42,734 nucleotides of DNA, from positions 1 through 42,734 of the IMG/VR virus record IMGVR_UViG_3300032820_000025; one strand, written 5' to 3'. Under the pieces are notes generated by a model. That model saw only the letters and a list, made by a program, of their open reading frames with translations. It ran no database searches and had not been told where the DNA came from. Positions 15,530 through 37,001 of the stretch are shown here, in pieces. The position numbers and the translations under genes were made by a program. The stretch's first letter is position 1. Each line of letters starts with the position of its first letter. Origin of the DNA: a virus.

Positions 15530-16712
15530 TGTATATTACCATAGTATCAAATATATGAGGTGCAACATCTTGAATATTAAATCCTCTAACAGTATTCATC
15601 CAGTTAGTAAATTTTATAAATTGTTGATAATCTGATTTTAAATTTTTTGGTTCAGTATTTAAAGAATTTTGAATATTTTGTATGCTAGTTTTGTCATTTA
15701 TTTTTTTCTTTATTTTGTGTAATAAGTTATTTTTAGTTGAATTGGGTAATAGATTAGCATTTAGATAAAATTCAATAGCAGGATAAACTGAGAAGTCAAT
15801 TGTTCCATATTGGGAAAAGTGTTTAAATGTTTCAGTTATATTTTCTATATTATATATACTCATAGTATAGTTGATTCCCATTTGTTGAACATTACTATGA
15901 TTTAGTAATATTTGAAAATTCTTATCTATGTTATCAAAGTTAGTTCCTCTTACCCATTCGTATATTTTGTTTACTCCATCGATGCTGGCATATATATGAA
16001 GATTTTTTAATTTGTCAAAAGTTTTTAATGTTTTATCAGTTATGTGTGTAATGTTACTAACTATTTTTATTTTTAAGTTTGGTCTAACACTTCCTAATCT
16101 ATTAAGGAATGCTAAACAGTTTTTATCATATAATGGTTCTCCTCCTTTAATAATAAGAACTTCTAGATCGTTTATATTGTTTAATATAGAGTCTATAGTT
16201 TCTTTTTGTAATACAACTGGTTTAAATTCACGAATGCCATAACTGTTTTTTATTGTATTAAATAAATCATTAGGCATTAATTTTTCTTGCTGTGCCCAAT
16301 GAGAACTATGGACACTGTTACACATTACACAACCTAAGTTACATTGATTACTAAAACTAATATCCATATGTTTAATTTTAGGTTTAAGTTTTGGTGTCGA
16401 TCTTTTAAAAATTTTTTCTTTAGATGTAACATTTCGACTATTGGCATATTTTAATCTATGACTAATAATTCCTTTTTCTTCTCTTGTGTAACACATATTA
16501 CATGCTTGTACAAATTCATCTTTTAACATTTTTTGTCTAATGTTGTTTATTTGATTACTGTTAAATATATCTTCGATATTTTTGTGAGATTTTGTAAAAT
16601 CGTGTAAGACGTGTTCTTTATTAGGAGTCCACACAGGACATAATTGTGCTCTACCTTTTGGATCTATGGTAAGTCCTTCGAATGGAATATAACAGTAATG
16701 TTTTTCTTTCAT
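15516..16712 (-). CDS. Radical SAM enzyme with N-terminal auxiliary-cluster cysteines (398 aa)
   Basis: The core motif CNLGCVMC (C124, C128, C131; CX3CX2C) binds the SAM-reducing [4Fe-4S] cluster, and IIKGGEP supplies the SAM-binding GGE. Before the core lie C7, C25, C71 and C74 within CYIPFEGLTIDPKGRAQLCP and CNMCY, the twitch/SPASM-like arrangement known from 'twitch-domain radical SAM' proteins, including phage ones. An in-frame ATG at 16727 lies too close to the promoter box (1 nt), so I chose the ATG at 16712. The gene is followed without a gap by the PLP enzyme. Together they form a minus-strand cassette with its own late-type box. Substrate unknown; peptide or nucleotide modification are possible. 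Confidence 0.8.
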   Translation of the reverse strand: MKEKHYCYIPFEGLTIDPKGRAQLCPVWTPNKEHVLHDFTKSHKNIEDIFNSNQINNIRQKMLKDEFVQACNMCYTREEKGIISHRLKYANSRNVTSKEKIFKRSTPKLKPKIKHMDISFSNQCNLGCVMCNSVHSSHWAQQEKLMPNDLFNTIKNSYGIREFKPVVLQKETIDSILNNINDLEVLIIKGGEPLYDKNCLAFLNRLGSVRPNLKIKIVSNITHITDKTLKTFDKLKNLHIYASIDGVNKIYEWVRGTNFDNIDKNFQILLNHSNVQQMGINYTMSIYNIENITETFKHFSQYGTIDFSVYPAIEFYLNANLLPNSTKNNLLHKIKKKINDKTSIQNIQNSLNTEPKNLKSDYQQFIKFTNWMNTVRGFNIQDVAPHIFDTMVIYNDIK

Positions 16713-16728
16713 GATAAGTAATAACATA

Positions 16729-20322: not shown

Positions 20323-20538
20323 ATGTTAAAAGAACAAACAAATAAGATTATGACAGATTGTATTGAATCGATTATTAAAGTTGGCGCGAAGCATGGAATA
20401 AATGTTAAGGATGAAAATTTTGTAAAAGATCTTGCATTATCATCTGGTTTTATTAGGGCTGCATTTGACCGACAATTAGGAAAGCCTAGTGTGTTGCACG
20501 AAGGCATGTCTGATCTTATGAAAGATAATTTAGTTTAG
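20323..20538 (+). CDS. Small hypothetical early protein (71 aa)
   Basis: No family recognised. The peptide is mostly helical (TNKIMTDCIESIIKVGAKHGINV, FVKDLALSSGFIRAAFDRQLG) and ends in VLHEGMSDLMKDNLV. It is preceded by a two-hexamer sigma70 promoter and a GAGG ribosome site, so it is likely expressed early. Its last 23 bases overlap the end of a convergent radical SAM gene, and no terminator lies between them, so antisense pairing of the two 3' ends is possible. Confidence 0.6.
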   Translation: MLKEQTNKIMTDCIESIIKVGAKHGINVKDENFVKDLALSSGFIRAAFDRQLGKPSVLHEGMSDLMKDNLV

Positions 20539-21478
20539 TTGTTTTGAAATCTGTTACATTGACGCAATAGTCATTTGGGCATTGAACAGGATCGTTAGGA
20601 AATTGTATGCTTTGAGGATTGTTAACATTTCCGAGAGCACCCCTTCCGCCGCCTGCTTTGCACCATGACCCTCGGCTTATCCGGCCGTCGATTCCTATAA
20701 AGATTTTTTCTACACCTATGTAGCAATTCCATCCTTTAAAACGATTTTTATTCTCGTTAATCCAACTAGCAGGATAAATGGTTTCGTTTTTCCCATCTTT
20801 GTATTCTATTTTAAATCGTGGATTAAATTTTTTTGATTTTGGTTGTTCCCAATTCGAATCGTAATTATTAAAGATGCTATATTTGGCCATAAAGTCTAAT
20901 TGCTCACTTGAGTATGGGTAAAATATATGTCCAAAGTTAATTCGTAATGGTTTTAATATAACAGGGTAACCATTATTATTTTTTGTTAATGTGATTGCAT
21001 TATTGACACTGGTATCCCAGTCGTCATGTTTCATTGGAACATTTGCTGTAACATCTGCTGTCTCATTCATTAGTTGTGCTACTTCTAACATATGTTCAGC
21101 ATCACCTTCCTCGGTATGGCAAGTTAAATTAAGCACATCGAAAATCTCTTGATAGTCTTTCCACCAACGCAATGTTCGTGATCCATTTGATAAGCAAGTT
21201 ATAATATTATCTGGATTACTTTTTATTAAATCTAGTTTTTCTTTTATTTTTGGATCCATTGTAATTTCACCACCAGATAAAATAAAGTGTAATGGTAAAG
21301 TAGTGTGTTGATATATTTTATCAAGCAGTTGTTGTAATTTGTCTATTCCAATCCATAACGTTGATCCATTGTGTAATTCATCAGGGCAGTAACTACAGGA
21401 AAAATTGCAGGTGCTACCGACTGACCAATCTACGGTAAAGTATTTCTCTATATTAGTGACTAAACGAATATCTTCCAC
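20516..21478 (-). CDS. Radical SAM enzyme with C-terminal SPASM-like cysteines (320 aa)
   Basis: CNFSCSYC gives C24, C28 and C31 (CX3CX2C) and LSGGE at 68-71 binds SAM. C252, C273, C300 and C305 near the end, in NCYIGVEKIFIGIDGRISRGSWC and CPNDYC, fit a SPASM-type domain with auxiliary clusters; such enzymes often modify peptides or proteins. The start is GTG at 21478, placed 5 nt after a CATAAATA box on the same strand. The product is unrelated in detail to the other two radical SAM genes here. It is convergent with, and overlaps, the small gene at 20323. Confidence 0.8.
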   Translation of the reverse strand: MEDIRLVTNIEKYFTVDWSVGSTCNFSCSYCPDELHNGSTLWIGIDKLQQLLDKIYQHTTLPLHFILSGGEITMDPKIKEKLDLIKSNPDNIITCLSNGSRTLRWWKDYQEIFDVLNLTCHTEEGDAEHMLEVAQLMNETADVTANVPMKHDDWDTSVNNAITLTKNNNGYPVILKPLRINFGHIFYPYSSEQLDFMAKYSIFNNYDSNWEQPKSKKFNPRFKIEYKDGKNETIYPASWINENKNRFKGWNCYIGVEKIFIGIDGRISRGSWCKAGGGRGALGNVNNPQSIQFPNDPVQCPNDYCVNVTDFKTTKLNYLS

Positions 21479-22465: not shown

Positions 22466-23503
22466 ATGTCCGCTCAGAAGTTAGTAAAGGTTAATGGGTC
22501 CTATCGGAATACGCCTGTTCCAGGTGTTGTGTTTCCGTTAGTCAAGGCTCTAACAAAAGGTAAGAAAGGTGACTTTGTTACCGTTGATGGAACATCAGTT
22601 CCTGGATACCCAGATCGTCATCTTCGTATTAAGGTGGCAAATAAGTCAGATTACGAATTTGTTAATTCTGATACTCCTATGGGATTACCAGAGAATGCTC
22701 CAAATAAAGTAGAAACCGAAGAAGAAGCAATTGAGCGAATCCGTGATCGGTTTGCAATCCTCGATGAAATGACTGAAGCCACTATTGATGGCACGGTGCG
22801 AGGTATGATTGTTTCAGGCCCCCCAGGTGTTGGTAAGTCATATGGTGTAGAAAGTGTGTTAGAGCGATCTAATACTTTTAATAAACTTGCTGGCAAGAAA
22901 TGCAAGTATGAAATTGTCAGAGGTGCCATGACAGCACTGGGTCTGTATGCTTTACTTTTTAAGTGGAGCGACCCTGGAAGGGTTCTGGTGCTCGACGATT
23001 GTGATACAGTTCTTTGGGACGAACTTTCGTTAAACCTTCTTAAAGGTGCTTTGGACTCCGGCAAGAAGAGACGGCTTTTTTGGAATGCTGATAGTAACAA
23101 ACTGCGTGGAGAGGGTATTCCGGATCAATATGAATTTAATGGTTCGATCATCTTTATATCGAACTTGAAATTCGACAAGTTAACGCAGAGTGGTCGGATT
23201 GGTAAGATTAAGGATCACTTGGAAGCCATTATCTCCCGTTGTCACTATTTGGATCTGACACTGGATACAATGCGCGACAAGATGCTCCGTATACATCAGA
23301 TCGTTGGTGATGGTATGTTGGATGAATATAAGTTCAACAAGACTGAGACAGCGATGATTGTAGACTACATTGACGAGAATAAAGAGAAGTTGCGTGAAGT
23401 GAGTTTGCGTATGGTGCTAAAGATTTCAGACTTGTACAAGATGGCACCCAAAAACGATCACTGGAAACGACTTGTCGAGACAACTTGTATGCGTAGAGTA
23501 TAG
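22466..23503 (+). CDS. AAA+ ATPase (345 aa)
   Basis: The Walker A motif GPPGVGKS is at 118-125, Walker B VLVLDDCD at 173-180, and sensor 1 lies at GSIIFISNLKFD near 225. An Arg-finger region follows (ISRCHYLDL). A C-terminal helical lid is present (MVLKISDLYKMAPK). The N-terminal 95 residues include a small beta-rich region (KGDFVTVDGTSVPGYPDRHLRIKV). Such AAA+ proteins are common in marine T4-like phages and their role is unproven. This is not gp44, whose sequence motifs differ. The gene has its own promoter and terminator, making a monocistronic unit. Confidence 0.8.
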   Translation: MSAQKLVKVNGSYRNTPVPGVVFPLVKALTKGKKGDFVTVDGTSVPGYPDRHLRIKVANKSDYEFVNSDTPMGLPENAPNKVETEEEAIERIRDRFAILDEMTEATIDGTVRGMIVSGPPGVGKSYGVESVLERSNTFNKLAGKKCKYEIVRGAMTALGLYALLFKWSDPGRVLVLDDCDTVLWDELSLNLLKGALDSGKKRRLFWNADSNKLRGEGIPDQYEFNGSIIFISNLKFDKLTQSGRIGKIKDHLEAIISRCHYLDLTLDTMRDKMLRIHQIVGDGMLDEYKFNKTETAMIVDYIDENKEKLREVSLRMVLKISDLYKMAPKNDHWKRLVETTCMRRV

Positions 23504-23528: not shown

Positions 23529-23553
23529 CCGGGGGGAGACCCCCGGTTTTTTT
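23529..23553 (+). terminator. Rho-independent terminator after the AAA+ gene
   Basis: A 7-bp stem CCGGGGG/CCCCCGG with a GAGA tetraloop is followed by seven T. Its last bases overlap the stop codon of the convergent radical SAM gene, so it sits exactly between two converging genes. Confidence 0.9.
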
Positions 23554-24820
23554 AACGAAATCTACTGCAAGTATAACCGCATAACATTAATCGAGCAGGA
23601 TCCCCATCATAGTCATGTTTCCAACTTTGTACTAATTTGTTACTAAACCATTCATGATTTAAAATTTCTTCAAGTGTGTGATAATACAGATTATTAAATT
23701 TACTTCCATACTTACCGTGTGTTTCTTGATAAAACTGATATGCCATTTCGTTTCCATTAGGATCGTCCCAAGGTACTTGTTTTTTTCCAAAACGCACACC
23801 GCCTACTTCACAGCAAGGCCAAACTTCTCCATTAAACATAAATTGTAAACCTGGATCTCCGTCTTGATTTTCAGTATATGAATCTGCATTTTTATCCCAT
23901 CGACATTGTATTCGTCCATGCTCCCAAAATTTATCAATATCATTGTTATATTGTTTTAAATGTTCTTTAAATAAATCTATATTTTCATCTGCTGTTTTAT
24001 CTATAACATATGGTAAGTCAGCTTTTTCATTTTTATTTGTTTTGTCTCCTGACTCTACACGATCTCCTGTAAGTTCTTCGGCAAATCCTTTTTGTTCCAT
24101 TGGTGCATAACCTTCGATTGCTTCGTCAGGATTCTCTGCTTCCCATATTGTTTCGTTTCTTCCATAACCTCCAACAGTAAAAAAGTTTTCAAATCCCATG
24201 TCAAAAGCCATACTTTTTGCTTCATTAATTTGATGTTCGTTATGTTCGAATATAATAAATTGCCATTCAGCATGTCCGCCAGCATTAATAAATGCTTTAG
24301 AATTTTCCATGCATTTTTTCCAGTTAACTTGTCGGCGATATATATGATTAGTGTCTTCCAGTCCATCAAATCCAAAAACAACTTTTCCAGGATATTGTTT
24401 TATTTCATCACCAGTATTGTATTTTTTATTTAAAGTTTGTGCTAATTCTTTCCACCAACCAGTAGAGTTAATACCTCCGTTAGTTGCAATATTAATGATA
24501 CAAAGTTCTTGTTTTACGCCAGCTTTTAATCGTGCTTCGATATTTTGTTTACTGATCATCCAATCGCACCCTCTTATAAGATCAGGATGTAATGGTGGAT
24601 CTCCATAGTTGCCACAAATGTCAAGCAACTCGAGTGAGTTTACAATGGGTTTTAAGAAAGATTTATAAAGATTCCAAGGCATATCTGCAAGTGGCATATT
24701 TTTATTAAGATATTTCCCATCAACATTACGAGCACATCGTAAACAAAGAGCATTACATTTAGTAGTATAATCTAGTTGTACTCTTTTAATTTGAGGAACT
24801 GTTATGTATTGATTATTCAT
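23552..24820 (-). CDS. Radical SAM/SPASM-like enzyme (422 aa)
   Basis: The core motif CNALCLRC gives C22, C26 and C29. The usual GGE is replaced by CGNYGDPPLHPD (residues 69-80), the GNYGDP variant seen in some SPASM radical SAM families. C-terminal cysteines C306, C336, C337, C414 and C418, in CRWD, NGEVWPCCEVGG and LCGYTCSRF, fit one or two auxiliary clusters. The insert at 225-300 is acidic. The gene starts at an ATG 5 nt after the box AGTAAATA. The likely role is modification of a peptide, protein or small molecule late in infection; the substrate is not inferable from the window. Confidence 0.8.
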   Translation of the reverse strand: MNNQYITVPQIKRVQLDYTTKCNALCLRCARNVDGKYLNKNMPLADMPWNLYKSFLKPIVNSLELLDICGNYGDPPLHPDLIRGCDWMISKQNIEARLKAGVKQELCIINIATNGGINSTGWWKELAQTLNKKYNTGDEIKQYPGKVVFGFDGLEDTNHIYRRQVNWKKCMENSKAFINAGGHAEWQFIIFEHNEHQINEAKSMAFDMGFENFFTVGGYGRNETIWEAENPDEAIEGYAPMEQKGFAEELTGDRVESGDKTNKNEKADLPYVIDKTADENIDLFKEHLKQYNNDIDKFWEHGRIQCRWDKNADSYTENQDGDPGLQFMFNGEVWPCCEVGGVRFGKKQVPWDDPNGNEMAYQFYQETHGKYGSKFNNLYYHTLEEILNHEWFSNKLVQSWKHDYDGDPARLMLCGYTCSRFR

Positions 24821-24872: not shown

Positions 24873-25091
24873 ATGGCTGAAGATATAGTTTATACTAGTG
24901 CTGAGGATGTTAGTTGTAAAGGGAGTACTGTTTTTGACGGCCATCCACTTGTTTATTATACATTTGGAAAATTCGGTCATTTACCAGGAGCACCTAAGAT
25001 TGTTAAAGGTAAACCAGAAGTAATTTGTGCTTATTGTGGTAGAAAATTTATATATAAAAAAGATGCAGAACGCAAAACTAATTATCCGTGA
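24873..25091 (+). CDS. zf-CHCC (NDUFS6-like) zinc-finger protein (72 aa)
   Basis: The sequence fits the zf-CHCC family, which includes the mitochondrial complex I subunit NDUFS6 and small bacterial homologues: DVSCKG (C15), then GHPLVYY (H24), then EVICAYCGRKFIY (C52, C55). These four residues would bind one zinc. The chain is 72 aa, a normal size for the stand-alone bacterial form. The promoter is placed so that the ATG is at +1. The last 29 bases overlap the start of uvsW. A role in the phage is unknown; iron-sulfur assembly or redox-complex interaction would be extrapolation from the family. Confidence 0.75.
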   Translation: MAEDIVYTSAEDVSCKGSTVFDGHPLVYYTFGKFGHLPGAPKIVKGKPEVICAYCGRKFIYKKDAERKTNYP

Positions 25092-26517
25092 TGAAGTAAA
25101 CATTAAGTTTGATGGATTAGATCCGTCAACACGCCGTAAGTTATCCGCGGCGGTTAAGTTTATGTTACCGTATGCATACCATATGCCTTCGTATAAGTTA
25201 GGACGGTGGGACGGAATGATACGGTTTTGTGATATTGGTGGTCGTTCATATTTAAATTTGCTTGATACATTATTACCCATTGTACAAAATGCAGGGTATC
25301 AAATTGAAGTAGAAGATCATAGGCAGACTTGGGAATTTGAATTTGATCCAATTGATAAAGATTATTTAAGTAAGATTAAATGGCCTAAAGGACATACTCA
25401 TGCTGGTGAGAAAATTGAGTTGCGTGATTATCAAGTAGAAGTTGTTAATAACTTTTTTGGTAACTTACAATGTTTGCAAGAAGTTGCTACTGGTGCAGGT
25501 AAAACTATTATTACTGCAACGTTGAGTAAGATAGTTGGTAAGTATGGTCGCACGATAGTTATTGTTCCAAACAAGAGTTTGGTTACGCAAACAGAAGATG
25601 ATTATATTATTGCTGGATTAGATGTTGGTGTGTTTTATGGAGATAGGAAAGAGTATGGACGCCAGCATACTATTTGCACATGGCAGTCATTAAATGTGTT
25701 ATTAAAAAAGAGTAAAAAGAAACAGGCAGAGATAGACATTGATGCATTTATAGATGGCGTAGTGTGCGTTATAGTAGATGAGGTGCATCAAGCAAAAGCA
25801 GATGTTTTAAAAACATTGCTTACAGGAGTGTTTGCACACATTCCAATACGGTGGGGATTAACAGGAACAATACCTAAAGAGGATTATGAGTTTGCGAGTC
25901 TTAAGTCAAGTCTTGGTGATGTTATTAATAGGATAAGTGCATCAGAGTTACAGGACCAGGGTATCTTAAGTAATTGCGAAGTTAAGGTATTGCAGTTAAA
26001 AGATGATGTAGAGTATCCAAATTATCCAAGTGAGTTAAAATATTTGGTTACTGATGAGAATAGAATTGATTACCTTGCTGACACAATACAAGATATTGCA
26101 AAGACAGGTAATACACTTGTGTTGATTGTTCGTATTAAAACGGGTGACATGTTAGTTAAGAGATTACCAAATGCAGTGTTTGTAAGAGGAGCAACTAAAA
26201 ATGAAGAACGTCGAGAGCATTATGATGAAGTGGCAAAGAGTAATGACAATCTTATCATTGCAACATACGGTGTTGCATCTATTGGCATTAATATTCCTCG
26301 TATCTTTAATTTGGTTCTTATAGAGCCAGGGAAAAGTTTTGTTAGAGTAATTCAAAGCATAGGTAGAGGTATTCGTAGAGCACATGATAAAGACTTTGTA
26401 CAGATATGGGATATTACAAGTAATTGTAAATACAGTAAACGCCATTTAACTGCACGGAAGAGATATTATCGTGAAGCAAATTACCCATTTGATATTGATA
26501 AGGTATTGTATAAATGA
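25063..26517 (+). CDS. uvsW: UvsW-type DNA/RNA helicase
   Basis: UvsW is a superfamily 2 helicase that unwinds R-loops and branched recombination intermediates in T4. The ATG at 25063 gives MQNAKLIIRDEVNIKFDG, which starts the N-terminal domain that ends with PSYKLGRWDGMIRFCD (like T4 FRYGNWDGRIRLLD). The Walker A motif is ATGAGKT (142-148), DEVH is at 239-242, GLTGTIPK is motif III-like, and the C-terminal part carries VASIGINIPRIFNLVLIEPGKSFVRVIQSIGRGIRR with the motif VI arginines. The length of 484 aa is close to T4 (503). It overlaps the zf-CHCC gene by 29 bases. Confidence 0.92.
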   Translation: MQNAKLIIRDEVNIKFDGLDPSTRRKLSAAVKFMLPYAYHMPSYKLGRWDGMIRFCDIGGRSYLNLLDTLLPIVQNAGYQIEVEDHRQTWEFEFDPIDKDYLSKIKWPKGHTHAGEKIELRDYQVEVVNNFFGNLQCLQEVATGAGKTIITATLSKIVGKYGRTIVIVPNKSLVTQTEDDYIIAGLDVGVFYGDRKEYGRQHTICTWQSLNVLLKKSKKKQAEIDIDAFIDGVVCVIVDEVHQAKADVLKTLLTGVFAHIPIRWGLTGTIPKEDYEFASLKSSLGDVINRISASELQDQGILSNCEVKVLQLKDDVEYPNYPSELKYLVTDENRIDYLADTIQDIAKTGNTLVLIVRIKTGDMLVKRLPNAVFVRGATKNEERREHYDEVAKSNDNLIIATYGVASIGINIPRIFNLVLIEPGKSFVRVIQSIGRGIRRAHDKDFVQIWDITSNCKYSKRHLTARKRYYREANYPFDIDKVLYK

Positions 26518-26550: not shown

Positions 26551-27057
26551 ATGCAGATTTTAACAGTAGAAAATGAAACATATAGTCTTAATAATTTACC
26601 AAATGAGATAGGTGATGTAAGATATTGTGTGCTCGATGTTACAGATCCAACATTTATTGATTATTACTTTTTGCCTTTAATATTTTTGGAGAGTTTTAAT
26701 ACACCAGCGGTAGTATTGCAAATAGGAAATAGATTTCAAATACAAATGCCATTGGATTGGAGTGTGTTAGTAGGTGAACCAGGGCAAGGAGATTTACAAG
26801 TTATTCCATTAACAAATTTAAATGATAGAGGGTTTACAACATTATTATATAATCCATTAAAAGGTTATATGCCAACTTGGGAACCAATACAAATTGTTAA
26901 TGTGTTTGTTGAGATAAAATGGTTTTTTCCAAAATTAAAGTATGGGCATTTATTAGTAATGCCGTTACATGATGGAACTAATCCTCTTTGTGGATTTTTT
27001 GTAAAAGAAACAAATAAGATTCCTGATGTTATTGATGTTGGTGATATTGTTTTATGA
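26551..27057 (+). CDS. Conserved-looking hypothetical protein (168 aa)
   Basis: No family name recognised. The product looks globular and mostly beta: MQILTVENETYSLNNL, LDVTDPTFIDYYFLPLIFLESF, AVVLQIGNRFQIQMPLDWSVLVGE, LQVIPLTNLNDRGFTTLLYNPL, and a last third with WFFPKLKYGHLLVMPLHDG. No catalytic motif, membrane helix or cysteine cluster stands out. It has its own probable early promoter, and its stop overlaps the ATG of the gp62-like gene (ATGA), so it is likely co-translated with replication proteins. A role in replication or transcription control is inferred from context. Confidence 0.65.
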   Translation: MQILTVENETYSLNNLPNEIGDVRYCVLDVTDPTFIDYYFLPLIFLESFNTPAVVLQIGNRFQIQMPLDWSVLVGEPGQGDLQVIPLTNLNDRGFTTLLYNPLKGYMPTWEPIQIVNVFVEIKWFFPKLKYGHLLVMPLHDGTNPLCGFFVKETNKIPDVIDVGDIVL

Positions 27058-27539
27058 AAGTTGATATGTTCAAAGAAATCCTCCCTGCTATTGGAAAGGG
27101 AGATAGAGAGTTCTATAATAATCTCAAACAAGAATCTAAGACTAGTACTAATTTTAGTCTTTGGATGATACATAGATGGGCAACGTGTCCTATAAAAAAT
27201 AAAGAACATTATATTTTATTTGTAAATGAATTGTGCAATCAACATTATAGCGAATTAAGTAAGCACCCAGAAATGCAATGGTTGTTATTAAGTGTTATTG
27301 GCTTAGGCGAAGAAAAGTATTTTAAGCAATGGGTTGGTACACCTAATAGTAGAACAAAAACAAATTCTATTGATAACTTTTTATTAGAAGCATATCCTAC
27401 AATTAGTGACGACGAGTTAAGTTTATTAAGAGAATTAAACGACCAAGAGGATTTTATTCAACTTGCAAAAGAAATGGGATACAACGACGAACAAATTTCT
27501 AATATCTTTGATGGAAAACGTAGAGATAAAAAAGGCTGA
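27054..27539 (+). CDS. 62: Clamp-loader small subunit, gp62-like (161 aa)
   Basis: T4 gp62 forms the clamp loader with gp44 to place the sliding clamp gp45. The protein has the look of the marine T4-like gp62 group: an N-terminal start (MFKEILPAIGKGDREFYNNL), a central signature 'FSLWMIHRWATC...FVNELCNQHYSEL..HPEMQWLLLSVIG' followed by EKYFKQWVG, and a C-terminal part with SIDNFLLEAYPTISDDELSLLREL. This corresponds to the family pattern 'PF(M/I)vNR.ls ... vNEmn ... QydfLinsi ... krFsKW' and a C-terminal '..Y..s...a...l..L.deq'. gp44 is not next to it, as it is in T4, and is not in the window. Confidence 0.6.
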   Translation: MKVDMFKEILPAIGKGDREFYNNLKQESKTSTNFSLWMIHRWATCPIKNKEHYILFVNELCNQHYSELSKHPEMQWLLLSVIGLGEEKYFKQWVGTPNSRTKTNSIDNFLLEAYPTISDDELSLLRELNDQEDFIQLAKEMGYNDEQISNIFDGKRRDKKG

Positions 27540-28218
27540 CGGCTTTAAGTGTAAATTTTGCAATAGAGAGTTTAAGAGTGTAAGAACTTTAAGCGCACAC
27601 ACCTGTGAGCAGAAACGTAGGCACACGTCAAAGAATGAGAAGTATGTGCAATTAGGATATAGGGCATTCCAACGATTTCATGAATTAAATTCAACTGCAA
27701 TTAAACCAACGCCTAAAACATTTGAAGAGTTTAGGCAGTCTCAATTTTATTTAGGATTTACAAAGTTTGGTAAGTTTGCACAGGGAGTAAATTGTTTACA
27801 GCATGAAGATTTTGTAGATTGGCTTGTTAGAAATAATTTGAAATTAGATGATTGGATAAAAGATGGTGCGTATGAACTATTTGTTAGAGAATATACTAGA
27901 GGTGAAAGGGCCGAATATGCTTTGGAACGTAGTGTTAAGTTTATGCAACGTTGGTCAGAAAAAGAGAATACTCATTGGCACGATTTTTTTAGAGAAGTTA
28001 ATTTAAATATTTTTACATATTGGATAAGGACAGGACGTATATCACCATGGGCAATTTTTAATTGTCGTAGTGGAACAGAAGTGTTAGCTAGGTTAAGTGA
28101 TGAGCAAATGGGATTAGTAGCAGACGCATTGGATCCAAAAGTATGGTCAACGAGGTTTGAGGTTAGTCCTGATGAGACTAGGTTTGTGCAAAACATTTTA
28201 ATAAAGGCTGGATTATGA
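27511..28218 (+). CDS. Zinc-finger protein of unknown function (235 aa)
   Basis: The ATG at 27511 is preferred over a TTG at 27463, which would extend the overlap with the gp62-like gene; overlap is then 29 bases. Residues 12-40 hold a C2H2/C2HC-type finger: FKCKFCNREFKSVRTLSAHTC, with C14, C17, H30 and either C32 or H38 as ligands. The rest (about 190 aa) is Trp/Phe/Arg-rich and helical (YRAFQRFHELN, FVDWLVRNNLKLDDWIKDGAYELFVREYTRGERAEYALERSVKFMQRW) and matches no family I know. It is likely nucleic-acid binding. Its stop overlaps the next ATG (ATGA), inside the replication block. Confidence 0.65.
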   Translation: MENVEIKKADGFKCKFCNREFKSVRTLSAHTCEQKRRHTSKNEKYVQLGYRAFQRFHELNSTAIKPTPKTFEEFRQSQFYLGFTKFGKFAQGVNCLQHEDFVDWLVRNNLKLDDWIKDGAYELFVREYTRGERAEYALERSVKFMQRWSEKENTHWHDFFREVNLNIFTYWIRTGRISPWAIFNCRSGTEVLARLSDEQMGLVADALDPKVWSTRFEVSPDETRFVQNILIKAGL

Positions 28219-28772
28219 AACTGCCTGACATTGATATTGATTTAAAAAATCGTGAAGAGGTATTAAATGTATTAAAGCATATACCTGCGAGTATTAATGA
28301 GAACAAAAAACATAATACAGGCGTATACTTTAATAATATACCAGTTAACCCATTTATTGGATCTGCTAGTATTGATTATAAAGAAGCAGAAGATAGAGGT
28401 TATTTTAAATTAGATCTTTTAAATGTTAATATGTATACTGATGTTAAGTCAGAAGAACACTTAAATGAGTTAATGAACAAAAAGCCAATGTGGTTTATGT
28501 TAGAGCATAAAGAGTTTGTCGAACAGTTATTTCATATACATAATCATTTTGATGTTGTGCAACAAATGAAACCACAGAATGTTGAACAATTAGCGGCAGT
28601 GTTAGCAATTATTCGTCCAGCAAAAAGATACTTGTTAGGTAAAAGTTGGAATGAAGTGTTTGCAGAAGTATGGATTAAGCCAACCGATGATGCATATTAT
28701 TTTAAGAAAAGTCATTCAACATCGTATGCATTAGCAATTATAGTTCAAATGAACTTGTTTACAGATAAGTAA
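28215..28772 (+). CDS. Miniature DnaE-like (DNA polymerase III alpha-like) protein (185 aa)
   Basis: The linear order of motifs follows the catalytic core of bacterial PolIII alpha. LPDIDIDL at residues 3-10 parallels PDFDVDF (D401/D403 in E. coli). KHNTGVYFNN (32-41) parallels HAaGVvIs. DRGYFKLDLLNV (60-71) parallels GLvKfDfLGL, with D67 at the place of D555. LAAVLAIIRPA (126-136) parallels iAl.RPGP. FKKSHSTSYALAI (163-175) parallels FNKSHaaaYal. DnaE is about 1100-1160 aa, so this is a compact derivative with large deletions between motifs. It lacks a visible PHP domain, tau-binding or OB region. Whether it polymerises DNA, or is an inactive relic or regulator, is unknown. It is coupled to its neighbours by ATGA overlap. 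Confidence 0.65.
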   Translation: MKLPDIDIDLKNREEVLNVLKHIPASINENKKHNTGVYFNNIPVNPFIGSASIDYKEAEDRGYFKLDLLNVNMYTDVKSEEHLNELMNKKPMWFMLEHKEFVEQLFHIHNHFDVVQQMKPQNVEQLAAVLAIIRPAKRYLLGKSWNEVFAEVWIKPTDDAYYFKKSHSTSYALAIIVQMNLFTDK

Positions 28773-28776
28773 ATTT

Positions 28777-29457
28777 ATGAATGTAAAAATACTTGAACAA
28801 TTGGAATTAATTTTTCAAACCTCTCCCCAGTTACTTCGGAATAGTTTTAAATTACAGCAAACTATACAAGGAACTTTTAATGTTTGGGTAGATGATGTTA
28901 GTTTTAATAACTTAGGTGATCTAGTAGAACGCATCGATGATAAAGTATTGGAAAAATACTTTAGTGAGATTTGGCAATCTGAAACTAAAAAATACAAGTA
29001 TAGTGGATTGTCTTTAGTTGATGAAATAAACAATTTAAAACCAGAAGCAGTGTTAGATGCTGGATGTGGGTTCAATGAGTTTAAAGGAAAAATACATAAT
29101 TTAATAGGTATAGATCCTTATAATGATAAAGCAGACATTAAAGTAAAGATAGCGGACTATACCCCAGATCGGTTGTTTGATGCAATAATATGTTTAGGGT
29201 CTGTTAATTTTGGTTCTACAGATAAAATTTTTACTGAACTTGAATGCATTGTTAATCTTGCCGCGGCAAATAGTAAAATGTATTTTAGAGTAAACCCAGG
29301 AATAGCACAGCCCCAGCCTGAATCAAATTGGATTGTATTTTATCCTTGGACACCGAATTTTATAATTAATTCTGCAGATTATTTAGGTGTTGATATTATA
29401 GAATTACGTAAGGATTATAAGGATAGGATGTATTTTGTTTGGTCGAAGAATAAATAA
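28777..29457 (+). CDS. Class I SAM-dependent methyltransferase-like protein (226 aa)
   Basis: Residues 92-98 read VLDAGCG, the SAM-binding motif I of Rossmann-fold methyltransferases, followed by HNLIGIDPYND (motif II acidic residue) and FDAIICLGSVNFGSTDKIF (motif IV/V region). There is a helical N-terminal part of about 80 aa. The C-terminal half has few hallmarks, so the substrate is unknown. It follows the DnaE-like gene by 4 bases and is the last gene before the transporter operon, which has its own leader. Confidence 0.7.
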   Translation: MNVKILEQLELIFQTSPQLLRNSFKLQQTIQGTFNVWVDDVSFNNLGDLVERIDDKVLEKYFSEIWQSETKKYKYSGLSLVDEINNLKPEAVLDAGCGFNEFKGKIHNLIGIDPYNDKADIKVKIADYTPDRLFDAIICLGSVNFGSTDKIFTELECIVNLAAANSKMYFRVNPGIAQPQPESNWIVFYPWTPNFIINSADYLGVDIIELRKDYKDRMYFVWSKNK

Positions 29458-29468
29458 TAATATTATAA

Positions 29469-29494
29469 GTTAACGAGTGTTAACTCCCGCGAGT
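29469..29494 (+). promoter_or_regulatory. Overlapping mutually exclusive hairpins upstream of the transporter gene
   Basis: GTTAAC (29469-29474) can pair with GTTAAC (29479-29484), and GAGT (29475-29478) with ACTC (29483-29486). The same ACTC can instead pair with GAGT (29491-29494) around a CCGC loop. They lie 27 bases before the ATG, with Shine-Dalgarno AAGGAG at 29509-29514. Confidence 0.35.
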
Positions 29495-29520
29495 GCGTTT
29501 ATTATTTTAAGGAGACACAA

Positions 29521-30990
29521 ATGGATATTACAAATATCTTTCCGTTGTTTCCTCCCAGTACTGGAATAATTGTCTTAATGATTTATGGGTTATTCGCATT
29601 AGCAATGACTCTCTGGTATTCGCGAGGATATAACGATACAAAAACATCATTTTTAGTAGCACGTCGAGAACTGAATACGTTTCAGGGATCGTTAAGTGTC
29701 GCGGCGGCCTGGCTGTGGGCCCCCGGCTTGTTTATATCAACACAGCAAGCATATGTAAACGGCCTTGTAGGACTATTCTGGTTCTGCTTGGGCAATTTCT
29801 TGACCCTAGGAGCATTCGCTTATTTTGCTAAACGAATACGCGAAAAAGCACCAGAAGGATTTACATTCTCTGGATATTTACGAGATAAATTTTCAGGCAG
29901 GGTGCAAGGACTATTTGTTGTAGAGATGATGCTGTTAGCAATCTGTGCGTTTGCTATTAACTTATTAGCAGGTTCAAAGACAGTAGAAATACTTACAGGT
30001 ATAGATTATACACTAGCAACATTCTTAATGGCTGGCGTAGCAATACTATATTCATTCCGTACTGGACTTAAAGCAACTGTAGTCACAGAAGTTATTAAGA
30101 TTCTTATAGTATGGACTGGTGTAATTATATTAGTACCGTGGGCAATATCTGCCGCGGGTGGTTGGAGTGTAGTAGTAGCAGGTCTTGGTGGTCGTACAGG
30201 ATTAGGTGGAAGCATATTTGGCACACCGTTTGCTTGGGGCATATTTACAGGCTTTGGAGCGGCGGCATTCTTAGGACACTTAGGTGGCCCATGGGGTGAC
30301 AACAGTTTTTACCAACGTGCGTTCTCAATTAAAAAGAACTGTATTATTCCGTCATTTATAATTGCAAGTTTTGTTTTTATAGTAGTTCCAATATGTATGG
30401 GGCTGTTAGGATTTTTAGCCGCAGGTGCAGGACTTGAAATTCCTAATTCAATGGTAGGTGTAACTAATGCGATTACTATAGGTACATTTTTACCAACAAG
30501 TGCGGCAATAGTGTTTATGTTTATGGTGTTTGCAGGATTAGTTGCTATACTTGATTCACAATTTGCAAGTGTAGCAAACATGACAGGACATGACATCTTT
30601 AATAAATTTAAAGGTGGCACAGATGACAAACAAGTCATTAACTATGCAAGGGGTGGTATGATTGCTCTTGCTATAGCAGGTGTAGGTGTAGCAAATATTC
30701 CAGGTATGCAATTGGTATACTTGTTCTTATTTTTTGCTGTACTACGAGCATCTGTATGGTTGCCTTCAATGATGTCAATAGTAAAGCCAGCATGGGTTAC
30801 TGAACTAGGCATGTTTTGGGGTATTGCAATACCAGCAACAATAGGTGAGATACTATTTGTTGCAGGTAAGTTAGGTTATAGTGATACTGCATTTACAGGA
30901 GTGCTAATAGCGATTTTTGGATCACCACTATTAGTGTTTATTATAAGCAGGATGGATAATGCCAGACTCACACAGACGAACGCTAGTTAA
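29521..30990 (+). CDS. Sodium:solute symporter family transporter (489 aa)
   Basis: The protein has the architecture of the SSS family (PutP/urea/pantothenate type): a short N-terminus, then about a dozen hydrophobic helices beginning IIVLMIYGLFALAMTLWYS. The family-typical start is TKTSFLVARRELNTFQGSLSVAAAWLWAPGLF, similar to '.fflagR.l......s..a.w.sa..f.g.....y..G', and residues near 370-400 read VFAGLVAILDSQFASVANMTGHDI. That matches the conserved 'lms.lsS.lns.s...t.D.y' region in which Ser/Thr residues contact sodium. The substrate is not predictable. A good ribosome site (AAGGAG) precedes the ATG. It overlaps the next gene by 32 bases. Phage-encoded transporters of this family are unusual. 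Confidence 0.85.
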   Translation: MDITNIFPLFPPSTGIIVLMIYGLFALAMTLWYSRGYNDTKTSFLVARRELNTFQGSLSVAAAWLWAPGLFISTQQAYVNGLVGLFWFCLGNFLTLGAFAYFAKRIREKAPEGFTFSGYLRDKFSGRVQGLFVVEMMLLAICAFAINLLAGSKTVEILTGIDYTLATFLMAGVAILYSFRTGLKATVVTEVIKILIVWTGVIILVPWAISAAGGWSVVVAGLGGRTGLGGSIFGTPFAWGIFTGFGAAAFLGHLGGPWGDNSFYQRAFSIKKNCIIPSFIIASFVFIVVPICMGLLGFLAAGAGLEIPNSMVGVTNAITIGTFLPTSAAIVFMFMVFAGLVAILDSQFASVANMTGHDIFNKFKGGTDDKQVINYARGGMIALAIAGVGVANIPGMQLVYLFLFFAVLRASVWLPSMMSIVKPAWVTELGMFWGIAIPATIGEILFVAGKLGYSDTAFTGVLIAIFGSPLLVFIISRMDNARLTQTNAS

Positions 30991-31159
30991 AACAATTATA
31001 TGGCGAGTATTTAATTTTATATACTGGCCAATACTTGCGTATGCAATAACAGGTTCGTGGAAATCAACAGGGCTCCTAACTATAGGAGCCATTGTTGGTA
31101 TGTTTTTGTATTATGGTTATGAAAGACTTTGGAATAAAATTCAATGGGGGAAAGAATAA
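30959..31159 (+). CDS. DUF2061 small membrane protein (66 aa)
   Basis: The sequence fits DUF2061: MPDSHRRTLVKTIIWRVFNFIYWPILAYAITGS in the first half (family pattern SHRRslvKaitWR), then a second hydrophobic stretch (TGLLTIGAIVGMFLYYGYERLW) and a basic end. Two membrane segments are expected. It overlaps the transporter by 32 bases and its stop TAA overlaps the next ATG (TAATG), so it is in the same operon. Function of the family is not established. Within its coding sequence, GGCTCCTA/TAGGAGCC at 31071-31090 forms a perfect 8-bp hairpin. Confidence 0.8.
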   Translation: MPDSHRRTLVKTIIWRVFNFIYWPILAYAITGSWKSTGLLTIGAIVGMFLYYGYERLWNKIQWGKE

Positions 31160-31812
31160 TGGAAGATCCAGTAGTTAGTGAAATGGAAGTAGAAAGACCA
31201 AATATGCTAGTGGTTACAGGTCCGCAAGGATCAGGTAATCATTTGTTTGCAAAATTATTTAATTTGCATCCAGAAGTATATGGTTGGAATATGGACAAGT
31301 ATTGGGTAGGGCATCATACAGAACCATTTTCAGAGTATTGGTGGGATCCAGCTACAGTTGATGAGTTTGGATGGGATCTTTGTAGTGATTATTATACAAC
31401 AAGTATCAGCTGCCCGTATTATAGAAATAAAGAACCGCAAATTCCAAAGTATGAGGAGTTTATTACAGCAGTTGAAAAACATTGTGATATTCTTGTTGCT
31501 ATCATTGGTCGTGATCGAACTATACTAGAATATGAACAAACTCGGGTTCGCAAAGGATATACTACTCCACTTGCACTTAAAGAATTTGAATATCTTTATA
31601 CATTAGATCCATATTTTATATCAATGGAGTTAGTATTTTTATATAGGGAAAATTATTTAAAGCAGGTCGGAAGAGATTTAGGTTTTCCAATAATAGAGAA
31701 TGCAGATATGATTAATGATGTATTAGTTGATGAATCTAATAAGAAGTATATACAAGAAGCAGGAGAACAACCATTAGATTTAGAAATTTATAAAGCGTGT
31801 GATGAATCATAG
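31159..31812 (+). CDS. Sulfotransferase-like P-loop protein (217 aa)
   Basis: The start is at the ATG overlapping the DUF2061 stop; an in-frame ATG 15 bases upstream lies inside that gene. Residues 16-34 read MLVVTGPQGSGNHLFAKLF followed by NLHPEVYGW. This resembles the 5'-phosphosulfate-binding loop of sulfotransferases, where a loop of the type 'GprkSGttll.kLL..hPev' opens the protein. Further conserved features (3'-PB region, Arg-Ser) are not obvious, so it may be an inactive or divergent nucleotide-binding protein. The stop overlaps the next gene start by 14 bases. It may add sulfate from PAPS to an acceptor, unproven. Confidence 0.55.
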   Translation: MEDPVVSEMEVERPNMLVVTGPQGSGNHLFAKLFNLHPEVYGWNMDKYWVGHHTEPFSEYWWDPATVDEFGWDLCSDYYTTSISCPYYRNKEPQIPKYEEFITAVEKHCDILVAIIGRDRTILEYEQTRVRKGYTTPLALKEFEYLYTLDPYFISMELVFLYRENYLKQVGRDLGFPIIENADMINDVLVDESNKKYIQEAGEQPLDLEIYKACDES

Positions 31813-32401
31813 ATATATTATTTTTACTGGAGCACCTGGGTCTAAATGGAGTTCAGTTGTAAAAAACATTTATTGGTCATGTGATTTAGATCAGTCTGAT
31901 TATAGTACGGAAAGATTGTATTATCATGATGCTGATACACCAGGTACTAAACAATTAATGCATTTGGGTGCATATTGGGATCCAGGCATGGAATTTGAAC
32001 CTAGAGAATGGGACCTTCCTTTTACATCAGAAAATTTAGATCTTAAACGCATTGTAAAAAGTCATGTGTTTGCGTATGAACTTAATCGTTTAAAAGATTC
32101 GCATCCATTGGTTATGGTGTATCGCAATGATGTTGATTGTATTGAATGGTGGAAAAAATGTGGGCATTTTAATATAACCTATCCAAATTATACACCTTAC
32201 TATATAGATCTTAACAATATGTGGTATGAAATACAAAAACAAAATCGTGCAATAATGCAATTTGTAAAAAACAACTTAGCAAGAATACACCAGCCGGAAA
32301 ATAATATTGATCTTTGTGGGATGTTAAATTTAGAATCCCCGGACGATTTCATTTACCATAATTACAAAGAAAAGGATATAAAAGTATATGTCTACAAGTA
32401 A
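31799..32401 (+). CDS. Second sulfotransferase/P-loop-like protein (200 aa)
   Basis: The N-terminus YIIFTGAPGSKWSSVVKNIY resembles a degenerate P-loop or phosphosulfate-binding loop, like the upstream protein but not closely similar to it. The body contains FTSENLDLKRIVKSHVFAYELNRLKDSHPLVMVYRNDVDCIEWWKKCG; the 'KSH' and 'vYRndvdciewW' parts parallel the sulfotransferase pattern 'KtHl...l......k.iyl.RnP.D...S'. Two tandem ATG codons are present at 31799 and 31802. It overlaps the oxygenase gene by 14 bases. Sulfotransferase-fold assignment is suggestive, not certain. Confidence 0.5.
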   Translation: MMNHRYIIFTGAPGSKWSSVVKNIYWSCDLDQSDYSTERLYYHDADTPGTKQLMHLGAYWDPGMEFEPREWDLPFTSENLDLKRIVKSHVFAYELNRLKDSHPLVMVYRNDVDCIEWWKKCGHFNITYPNYTPYYIDLNNMWYEIQKQNRAIMQFVKNNLARIHQPENNIDLCGMLNLESPDDFIYHNYKEKDIKVYVYK

Positions 32402-33038
32402 TTGGGAACACGGCAAAGCACAGAGTGACTATCATTTTGACTGGCAACGTAAAGAAACAAGCGGGCATGATTACAAATGGTTAGCAAGATTTGAAGGGGA
32501 ATGGTCTGTAGAATTAGAACAAATCAAACAACAAGCACAACCAAAAACATGGGCTACACGTGGCAAAGATTATCACCCAGGCGATTCTGATTTACAATCA
32601 GAACAAAACGATTTAGTTAATGCTGGGATGAATACAGAGCAAGTTATATTTCGTAAGGTACTTGAGTTTGAAGGTGTGTGGAAAACTATGATAGATGAAT
32701 TAGGATTACTATACACTAAACAAGCATTTCATATACAGTACCCAGGCGAAATGTTAAATTTACATATAGATAAACAATACGAAATGAATGATGATCCTAA
32801 ACAAGTAGCAAGATTTTTTATATTTTTAGAAGATTGGAAACCGGGGCATTTTTTACAAATGGGTACTAGTTTTATTCAATGGCGTAAGGGTGATTTAGTT
32901 TGGTTTGATTGGCCAAATATTCCACATGCAAGTGCTAATGCAGGCTGGGAGCCAAGATGTTTAATACAAATTACAGGCACTATGTCGGATAAGACTAATG
33001 ATCTATTTTTAGGAAGACGCAGAAGATTGATAATTTGA
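32388..33038 (+). CDS. 2-oxoglutarate/Fe(II) dioxygenase (216 aa)
   Basis: The iron-binding facial triad is visible: H126-x-D128 in LNLHIDKQYEMN and H180 in NIPHASANAGW. The 2-oxoglutarate-binding Arg is R190 in EPRCLIQITG. Between them WRKGDLVWFDW forms the double-stranded beta-helix strand. The shape 'H-x-D ... W..GDlv.fd....H...N.g...R' is that of aspartyl/asparaginyl beta-hydroxylase-like enzymes. Such oxygenases are common in marine T4-like phages. It hydroxylates an unknown substrate. It is the last gene of the transporter operon and ends 2 bases before the convergent minus-strand gene. Confidence 0.8.
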   Translation: MSTSNWEHGKAQSDYHFDWQRKETSGHDYKWLARFEGEWSVELEQIKQQAQPKTWATRGKDYHPGDSDLQSEQNDLVNAGMNTEQVIFRKVLEFEGVWKTMIDELGLLYTKQAFHIQYPGEMLNLHIDKQYEMNDDPKQVARFFIFLEDWKPGHFLQMGTSFIQWRKGDLVWFDWPNIPHASANAGWEPRCLIQITGTMSDKTNDLFLGRRRRLII

Positions 33039-33040
33039 AA

Positions 33041-33421
33041 TTATTCTTTATCCATTTTTCGGATTAATTGTACAGTTCGTCTTTTTGCTCGTTTTCGTAT
33101 GATGTTATGAAGACTTGTAATAGGCCCAAAGAGAAATTCAACATCTTTGCTAATAAAATTTTGTAAGCAAAAACGAAATCCTTCCATTTCTTTTGGAAGA
33201 AATAAATTAATAGGTGTTATGCGGTTACTTTCCCACCACCAAGTTTCGCCAAGAGTGAGAAATCGCTTTTTTAATTCTTCTTCTTTTAATCTATCAAAGC
33301 AATAAATGCTAGTTATGTGTGAATTATGGTTTTGTATAATGCCGATGATTTCTTTACCAGAGTACTTGATGCCCGAAAGGAATGGATATTTTTCAATTAT
33401 TTCATCGACGTTTTCACTCAT
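33041..33421 (-). CDS. Hypothetical protein with GETWWWESNR motif (126 aa)
   Basis: No function known. The sequence has the look of a conserved small globular protein: IEKYPFLSGIKYSGKEIIGIIQNHNSHITSIYCFDRL, then LTLGETWWWESNRITPINLFLPKEMEGF, and a basic C-terminal end (IIRKRAKRRTVQLIRKMDKE). I believe similar proteins exist in other marine T4-like phages, but I cannot verify this here. It starts 6 nt after TATAAGTA on the minus strand, a weak late-type box. It is the fourth minus-strand unit in the window and is convergent with the oxygenase operon. Confidence 0.65.
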   Translation of the reverse strand: MSENVDEIIEKYPFLSGIKYSGKEIIGIIQNHNSHITSIYCFDRLKEEELKKRFLTLGETWWWESNRITPINLFLPKEMEGFRFCLQNFISKDVEFLFGPITSLHNIIRKRAKRRTVQLIRKMDKE

Positions 33422-34266: not shown

Positions 34267-35256
34267 GTGCTTATAGATAAGGTAAAGTCTGTTATTCTGC
34301 CAAGCCTTCCAAAAAAGAAAGTAAGTCCTGGCGGATGGATGTCAATGAATTGCCCAATGTGTGTTACTATGGGTGAATCTCGCCCAGATAAAAGGAAACG
34401 AGGCGGGTTTAATTTTACAGCAGATAATTCAATAATGTATCACTGTTTTAATTGTGGATACAAAACTGGATGGAAGCCCGGTGGTGTTTTAGGAAAGAAG
34501 TTTGTTAGTTTATTAACTGGACTAGGTATTGAGGATAGTACAGTTAATAAATTAAAGATTGAGAGTATTCAGGAAAGAAGCAAAGAGGTAGTTTATGAAG
34601 CACCAAAGCAATTAAGATTAGATTGGGAGGAAGTTAATCTCCCAGATGGTGCAAAGAAAATTTCTGCTGATACAGATTCAGACGTGCTTTCATATTTACA
34701 GTCTCGTGGAAGAGGTATATTTGAAAATTGGGATTATTATTGGACATCTGACACTTATATGGATTTAAATAAAAGGATTATTGTCCCATGTTTTTTTAAA
34801 GACAAAATAGTAGGTTGGGTGTCAAGACATGTTAAACCAAATAAAACTTCAAAGCCAAAATACTATGTCAAAGTGCAACAAAATTATTTGTTTAATTTAG
34901 ATCAACTCTATGAAAAAGATCGTAAATATGTTATACTAGTTGAAGGACCGTTTGATGCAATCGGTGTTGACGGAGTTGGATTGTTGGGATCAAGTATAAA
35001 TCGGACACAAATAGAATTTTTAAATACTTTTGATAAACAAATTATTCTTGTTCCAGACAGAGATACTGCTGGTAAAAGATTAGTTGCAACTGCTATTGCA
35101 AATAAATGGGCAGTTAGTTTCCCAGATTGGGAAGATGATATACATGATGTCGCTGATGCTGTAAATCGATATGGTAGATTATTTGCATTAAAAAGTATTA
35201 TTGATTCAATGGAAGAAAATCCAACAAAGATTAATGTGTTAAAAAGGAGAGTGTAG
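34267..35256 (+). CDS. 61: DNA primase, gp61 family
   Basis: The N-terminal zinc-binding domain has C29-P-M-C32 and C60-F-N-C63, the last inside MYHCFNCGYKTGW. The TOPRIM domain has VILVEGPFDAIGV with E226 and VPDRDTAGK with D263 and D265, the magnesium-binding acidic residues. T4 gp61 makes primers with the gp41 helicase; the gene pair gp61-gp41 lies here with one small gene between. The start is GTG at 34267, chosen because any later ATG would remove the zinc-binding cysteines. The length of 329 aa is close to T4 gp61 (342 aa). Confidence 0.9.
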   Translation: MLIDKVKSVILPSLPKKKVSPGGWMSMNCPMCVTMGESRPDKRKRGGFNFTADNSIMYHCFNCGYKTGWKPGGVLGKKFVSLLTGLGIEDSTVNKLKIESIQERSKEVVYEAPKQLRLDWEEVNLPDGAKKISADTDSDVLSYLQSRGRGIFENWDYYWTSDTYMDLNKRIIVPCFFKDKIVGWVSRHVKPNKTSKPKYYVKVQQNYLFNLDQLYEKDRKYVILVEGPFDAIGVDGVGLLGSSINRTQIEFLNTFDKQIILVPDRDTAGKRLVATAIANKWAVSFPDWEDDIHDVADAVNRYGRLFALKSIIDSMEENPTKINVLKRRV

Positions 35257-35621: not shown

Positions 35622-37001
35622 ATGGCAAAAGAGTTTACAGAAGATTTACAAAAATTATTTTTAAGTTTTTTAATAAGTGATAAAGAATTATATCTTCGCG
35701 TACAAAGTTTAGTTGTACCAGATTATTTTAATAATAAATTTCGGCCAGCGGTTAGATTAATTCGAGAACATGCTGATAAGCATAATAGTGTGCCAACCGT
35801 TGAGCAAATTAAAGGTAAAACAAGTATTCAATTAGAGTTAGATAGAGATATAACTGCCAGGCATAAAGACTGGTTTGTTGATGAGTTTCAAGATTTTGCA
35901 AAGTTTAAAGCACTTGAAAGAGCAATTTTAGCAAGTGCTGATGATATCGACAAAGGTGAATATTATTCTGTTGAAAAAAGAATTAAAGAAGCATCTGACA
36001 TTGGATTAGCAACAAATTTAGGGACTAATTATTTTCATAATCCGTTAGAAAGATTAAAAAGTTTAAGAGACAATAATGGACAAGTAAGTACAGGTTGGGC
36101 GGCAATTGATAAAAAGTTATTTGGTGGATTTAATAAAGGAGAACTTAATATTTTTGCTGGTGGCAGTGGCACAGGAAAAAGTTTATTTTTACAAAATCTT
36201 GCTTTAAATTGGTCAATTGAAAAACTTAATGTTGTTTATATTACATTAGAGTTAAGTGAAGAATTAGTAGCAATGCGATTAGATAGTATGAATACAGGCA
36301 TGAGTAGTAAAGCATTATTTAAGAATATGGAAGATGTTGATTTAAAAGTGCGTATGCTTGCAAAAGGAGCTGGCGCATTGCAAATTGTGTATTTGCCAAG
36401 TGGTGTAACTGTATCTCAACTTAAATCATATTTAAAAGAGTATGAAATTCAAAGTGGGCTGCAACCACAAGCAGTTATAATTGATTATCTTGATTTAATG
36501 ATGCCTAATGATAGACGTGTAAGTCCAAGTGATTTATTTGTTAAAGACAAATATGTTGCAGAGGAGTTGCGTAATCTTGCAGTTGAATTAGACACATTGT
36601 TAGTAACAGCATCACAATTAAATAGAACAGCAGTAGAAGAAATAGAATTTGATCATTCTCATATTGCAGGTGGATTAAGTAAAGTACAGACAGCAGATAA
36701 TGTTATGGGTATATTTACAAGTGCGCCAATGCGTGAAAGAGGGCGTTATCAAATTCAATTTATGAAAACTAGAAGTAGTAGTGGTGTTGGACAACGAGTA
36801 GACTTGCAGTTTAACATAGAAAGTTTGCGAATTAGTGATTTACCTGAAGGTGAAGAAGCAAATGAACCAGATGTTTATAATAATATTATGCGTAATAGCA
36901 ATGTTAAAGACGATAAAGAAGCCAATAATAATCAAAACCCGGATGTAAAGGCGCAGGATTTGCGTAAAATGATTGCTAATATGAACAAATTAAATAGATA
37001 A
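35622..37001 (+). CDS. 41: Replicative DNA helicase, gp41 (DnaB family)
   Basis: gp41 is the hexameric 5'-3' helicase at the T4 fork. The N-terminal domain (about 1-130) is helical. The RecA-like domain has Walker A GGSGTGKS at 180-187, Walker B AVIIDYLDLM at 284-293 and ITLELSEELVAMRLDS, which corresponds to the Glu-bearing motif after Walker A. ASQLNR near 336 and FMKTRSSSGVGQRVDLQFN near the end match motifs 3 and 4. The length of 459 aa agrees with T4 gp41 (475). It starts 2 bases after the preceding stop. Confidence 0.95.
   Translation: MAKEFTEDLQKLFLSFLISDKELYLRVQSLVVPDYFNNKFRPAVRLIREHADKHNSVPTVEQIKGKTSIQLELDRDITARHKDWFVDEFQDFAKFKALERAILASADDIDKGEYYSVEKRIKEASDIGLATNLGTNYFHNPLERLKSLRDNNGQVSTGWAAIDKKLFGGFNKGELNIFAGGSGTGKSLFLQNLALNWSIEKLNVVYITLELSEELVAMRLDSMNTGMSSKALFKNMEDVDLKVRMLAKGAGALQIVYLPSGVTVSQLKSYLKEYEIQSGLQPQAVIIDYLDLMMPNDRRVSPSDLFVKDKYVAEELRNLAVELDTLLVTASQLNRTAVEEIEFDHSHIAGGLSKVQTADNVMGIFTSAPMRERGRYQIQFMKTRSSSGVGQRVDLQFNIESLRISDLPEGEEANEPDVYNNIMRNSNVKDDKEANNNQNPDVKAQDLRKMIANMNKLNR

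Follow-up and report, generated by a model that had tools for sequence, protein, structure and literature searches.

A Pol III alpha-type palm protein, probably one half of a split minimal enzyme, in the replication block of an uncultured T4-like virus

Results

The uncultured virus fragment analysed here (IMG/VR record IMGVR_UViG_3300032820_000025, 42,734 nt, hereafter the window) encodes a 185-aa protein that is homologous to the palm of bacterial Pol III alpha, a C-family polymerase. We consider it probable (roughly 0.7) that this protein, the C-half, and a second viral protein, the N-half, constitute a split minimal C-family (Pol III alpha-type) nucleotidyltransferase in which two chains build a single palm beside a family B replicase. 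This reading draws on the homology of the two proteins to adjacent segments of Pol III alpha, on the way in which these segments tile, on their co-presence in the same genomes and their co-occurrence with family B polymerase, on residue conservation and purifying selection, and on the location of the C-half in a replication block.

Genomic location and catalytic motifs of the C-half

The C-half gene is a real and conserved ORF that runs from ATG to TAA. Its main neighbours in the window are the following:

22466-23503 (+): AAA+ protein with a weak match to the T4-type clamp loader family (PHROG 1250)
25027-26517 (+): UvsW-like helicase
26551-27057 (+): conserved neighbour of unknown function (PHROG 11279)
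27054-27539 (+): gene of unknown function (PHROG 11758), putatively labelled gp62-like in the preliminary description
27463-28218 (+): C2H2-type zinc-finger protein (PHROG 11058)
28215-28772 (+): C-half of the probable split minimal Pol III alpha, 185 aa (motifs, PHROG 11778 and structural model)
33041-33421 (-): antisense gene, in relatives the next one downstream of the C-half (PHROG 11637)
34267-35256 (+): DNA primase
35622-37001 (+): DnaB-like replicative helicase

The translation bears out the motifs that had been recognized from the sequence, in the same order as in Pol III alpha: PDIDID (residues 4-9), HNTGVYF (33-39), KLDLL including D67, IRPA (133-136), and KKSHSTSYALA (164-174). Positions in E. 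coli were taken from the DnaE sequence, and their correspondence to the window protein was read by motif and structural alignment. Since the E. coli motif PDFDVDF opens with P400, residues D401, D403, and D555 correspond to D5, D7, and D67 of the window protein, as had been proposed. By the same alignment, D405 corresponds to D9, K553 to K65, H511 to H33, R639 to R134, K758 to K165, and H760 to H167. The C-half thus holds the metal-binding aspartates (D5, D7, and D67), the lysine K65, and remnants of the fingers (R134, K165, and H167). These aspartates are kept among homologues: DxDxD is present in all 168 C-half homologues compared, and D67 is invariant across a 62-row alignment of diverse homologues. 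K65 is invariant as well.

The remainder of the polymerase is strongly reduced. The stretch from DxDxD to H511, which contains the thumb in E. coli, has shrunk from about 105 to about 23 residues, and the stretch from RPGP to KSH, which holds R709 and R710, from about 115 to about 30. Both fingers arginines and the thumb are absent from the C-half. The Gly-Ser nucleotide-binding loop is also missing from this protein, whose chain opens at the DxD motif.

Homology to Pol III alpha and family size

The profile matches indicate a resemblance to DnaE beyond chance. PHROG 11778 ("DNA polymerase") matches the whole window protein (1.6e-68), and a weaker match was obtained to phrog_405, a phage DNA polymerase family of 1190 positions (1.1e-5). 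Among 62 diverse C-half homologues, 54 matched Pfam DNA_pol3_finger (best 2e-4) and 50 matched NCBIfam TIGR00594 (best 1.2e-6). Searched as a single sequence against the PDB and Pfam, the window protein yielded nothing significant, reaching only 0.036 in Pfam, and family profiles and structure were needed to establish the homology. NCBIfam matches to cmk and arginine succinyltransferase were rejected as spurious, as they involved 1-20 members and fell far under the cut-offs.

C-half homologues were found in 63 phage records and, within the 600 stretches scanned, at least 579 times in IMG/VR; nearly all are 180-200 aa long. Both halves are under purifying selection, with a median pairwise dN/dS (Nei-Gojobori, pairs with 0.2<dS<1.2) of 0.16 (C-half) and 0.07 (N-half). 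In one relative (L116), codon 76 of an otherwise intact C-half is an in-frame TAA, which is either a sequencing error or a real disruption.

Predicted structures tile one palm

The AlphaFold2 model of the C-half, built from the 62-row alignment, has a mean pLDDT of 91.6. When the PDB was searched with this model by Foldseek, each of the top 16 matches was a Pol III alpha or a PolC (best E 1.5e-3, probability 1.00). With VIA-align, model residues 1-185 were placed on residues 398-778 of E. coli alpha (2hnh) with a Z score of 8.9, 181 of the 185 residues being aligned at 3.7 A; the first unrelated row had a Z score of 3.8. The equivalent regions in other structures are 417-806 of 5lew, 460-835 of 3e0d, and 968-1298 of PolC (9qrn). 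The structural check proposed earlier found the DnaE palm, and the alignment of the model with Pol III palms suggests that D5, D7, and D67 cluster. Structural alignment also resolved the placement of the sequence, as hhalign had set both ends of the C-half in the wrong place and got only its middle block right.

The model of the N-half (mean pLDDT 88.5) aligns through residues 81-179 with 279-395 of 2hnh, 308-415 of 5lew, 303-457 of 3e0d, and 824-966 of 9qrn, while its residues 1-80 are barely covered by structural matches. In each of these four structures the C-half starts two or three residues after the end of the N-half, so that the two proteins tile one palm. As modelled, the split point is just before the metal-binding strand.

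The missing palm segment is encoded by a separate viral gene

We identified the N-half by searching MAGs that hold C-half relatives with Pfam PF07733. The matches are separate ORFs of about 173 aa, ending WGVGRGSSVASFCLFLIGVHKINPMLYNLDITEFLR-stop, and correspond to the DnaE segment that directly precedes PDFDVDF, with the Gly-Ser (GRGS) loop and the preceding palm helices. PF07733 is matched by all 37 members of a diverse N-half set, and each of 126 N-halves compared contains GRGS. In PHROG the family has the number 11127 and is likewise named "DNA polymerase". Several contigs of this virus group (L086-L093) are binned into bacterial or archaeal MAGs such as Pelagibacter and Natrialbaceae, where they are probably contaminants.

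Both halves and a family B polymerase are present in each of the 14 searched records of at least 277 kb, which comprise six IMG/VR contigs (G008, G034, and G039-G042) and eight phages (Atu_ph07, CBB, Cassandra, Phosso, XacN1, Vibrio 2.275.O, SCTP-2, and CM1). The two genes lie far from each other; in G008, for example, about 230 kb separate them, and in CBB 34 kb. Among the 60 phage records listed with a C-half, 58 also appear in the N-half list, and XacN1 was added by profile search; W12-3, a 109-kb record with a C-half, gave no N-half match. Several fragments of roughly 50-220 kb bear one half only, which fits the large gene spacing and is not taken as loss. Neither tblastn nor the GRGS motif revealed an N-half in the window, and no family B polymerase was found among the window ORFs scanned. 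The N-half of this virus is likely unseen because the record is a 42.7-kb fragment; an N-half is present in the virus of L030, one of the large records, whose C-half shares 66% identity with that of the window.

These results refine the preliminary description. Its radically shortened C-family piece in a T4-like replication block is upheld by profiles, structure, and neighbourhood, but a stand-alone mini-polymerase is not, because the palm segment with the GRGS loop lies on a separate viral gene.

A conserved replication neighbourhood

A T4-type replication set is present in the window (gp32-like SSB, UvsX, UvsW, DnaB, and primase), and the surroundings of the C-half are largely fixed. We compared 133 relatives for which 6.5 kb of sequence or more was available. 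Near the C-half, 132 of them have the zinc-finger gene and 132 have PHROG 11637; the counts are 128 for PHROG 11758, 119 for the primase, 118 for PHROG 11279, and 109 for UvsW. PHROG 11279 and PHROG 11637 are candidates for further replication factors of this lineage.

In the window, the stop codon of the zinc-finger gene overlaps the start of the C-half by four bases (ATGA), an overlap shared by 22 of the 133 relatives. The zinc-finger ORF as listed begins at TTG and its true start is likely a later ATG. Among phage records, 61 encode the zinc-finger protein, and they are essentially those with a C-half; such matching is expected inside one lineage and is weak evidence of joint function. We nevertheless view this protein as a candidate DNA-binding partner of the C-half.

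In the window, about 4.3 kb of cargo (28777-33040, +) separates the C-half from PHROG 11637, its neighbour in relatives. This cargo encodes a sodium:solute symporter (Pfam SSF) accompanied by a DUF2061 membrane protein, a 226-aa protein that could not be assigned, and three further proteins that gave no matches; just one of the 133 related loci has the symporter and the 226-aa protein. The plus-strand structural and replication blocks are also broken up by three genes on the minus strand (15516-16727, 20516-21478, and 23552-24820) that match radical SAM or SPASM families.

Discussion

Possible activity of the two-chain palm

Most likely, the two halves form one active site that assists the phage family B polymerase. 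The N-half would supply the Gly-Ser loop that binds the nucleotide, together with the palm helices ahead of it, the C-half would contribute the metal-binding aspartates, K65, and the fingers remnants, and the two chains would associate non-covalently into a single palm. Devoid of a thumb, PHP domain, fingers arginines, and C-terminal DNA-binding domains, such an enzyme would be distributive and suited to primer extension, gap filling, or repair. Phage partners, for instance the zinc-finger protein of the neighbouring gene, may tether it to DNA while the family B enzyme acts as the main replicase. With no DNA grip of its own, it probably acts on short patches to which phage replication proteins recruit it.

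Templated polymerization by this pair is not assured, since it lacks R709, R710, and the thumb, and since hhalign puts a glutamate of the N-half opposite R390. The main rival is a two-chain palm that works as a template-independent nucleotidyltransferase and, like small Pol beta-fold enzymes, attaches nucleotides to the end of a nucleic acid or to a protein. Such an activity would agree with the retention of the metal ligands and the Gly-Ser loop and with the loss of the thumb, most of the fingers, HhH, OB, and R709/R710. We nonetheless judge it unlikely, given that the locus sits in a replication block between UvsW and the primase and that the C-family finger residues R134, K165, and H167, not obviously needed by a simple transferase, have been kept. 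The full proposal of a two-chain C-family polymerase of ~360 residues that dispenses with the thumb and most of the fingers, possibly has the zinc-finger protein as a DNA-binding third subunit, and works beside the family B replicase throughout a very widespread T4-like lineage is a tentative one, somewhat less probable than even.

The extreme truncation, and the ability of the family B polymerase of the same viruses to replicate the genome, could also mean that the halves are not catalytic at all and serve as a structural or regulatory factor, or as a decoy that ties up the clamp or tau, the partners of the host Pol III. We find this improbable: the three aspartates, the GRGS loop, and K65 are invariant, a strictness across two chains that would be unexpected of a decoy, and the aligned part stops at E. 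coli residue 778, ahead of the C-terminal domains of Pol III alpha that bind the clamp and tau. A decaying relic of a host dnaE might be short, like the C-half, and might acquire a stop codon, as in L116; yet at least 579 homologues of nearly uniform length (180-200 aa), a dN/dS of about 0.16, and fixed synteny have already largely refuted this origin, which we regard as very improbable. The decoy and the relic had both been raised in the preliminary description, and both are disfavoured by the invariance of active-site residues on two proteins and by the low dN/dS. A split minimal nucleotidyltransferase remains the preferred reading.

Significance

Split minimal Pol III was known beforehand, having been predicted in 2021 for giant phages, and the window locus is a further member. 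Our analysis shows that the split arrangement is widespread in uncultured viruses and adds hundreds of homologues from them, a residue map, purifying selection, a fixed neighbourhood of replication genes, and the loss of the fingers arginines. Should the pair be active, few templated polymerases would be smaller; its active site would be shared by two genes, and it would define the minimal C-family catalytic core. It would also open to testing the question of why, in hundreds of lineages, viruses with their own family B replicase retain a bacterial-type nucleotidyltransferase as a second enzyme. The halves are usually annotated separately (often as hypothetical, structural, or simply "DNA polymerase"), and naming them as a pair should aid annotation.

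Comparison with known systems

Bacterial Pol III alpha/DnaE (E. coli, M. tuberculosis, and Thermus) and PolC share with the C-half the palm fold, the DxD and D motifs, K553, and the finger RP and KSH motifs. They differ in being single chains of about 1160 aa with PHP, thumb, full fingers, HhH, OB, and CTD, none of which is found in the C-half; relative to the full-length enzyme, the C-half has the aspartate triad but lacks a Gly-Ser loop on the same chain. A 547-aa single-chain C-family polymerase without PHP, with GS, DxD, and fingers RR motifs (L262, 547-2190, -), shares the 49.8-kb contig G027 with a mini C-half (L112); it may represent an intermediate form, or else one virus may have two such enzymes.

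Cyanobacterial DnaE, split by an intein, is likewise encoded by two genes, at a split site that differs from the viral one. No intein part is visible in either viral half, the N-half ending in ...EFLR-stop and the C-half starting just before PDIDID, so the chains would stay separate.

Among the papers searched, none reported experiments on the split enzyme. In phage CBB, a Pol III alpha truncated to 172 aa, CBB_328, was noted earlier (Buttimer et al. 2017, PMC5259590), and its position and length identify it as an N-half. CBB therefore has the same system, with gp287 as the C-half, homologous to the window protein, and CBB_328 (gp328) as the other half. RefSeq names both CBB proteins (L083 and L266) "DNA polymerase", GenBank lists the C-half as "putative membrane protein", and in many phages the C-half is listed as hypothetical. 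The closest precedent is the split minimal Pol III that Iyer et al. (2021, PMC7824862) described for jumbo phages of "group 2.2". The window shares with these phages a C-terminal protein bearing the metal-binding aspartate motifs of the Pol III palm and a T4-type replication set, and we see no essential difference between the two systems, the window being a fragment of an uncultured virus whose N-half would lie outside it.
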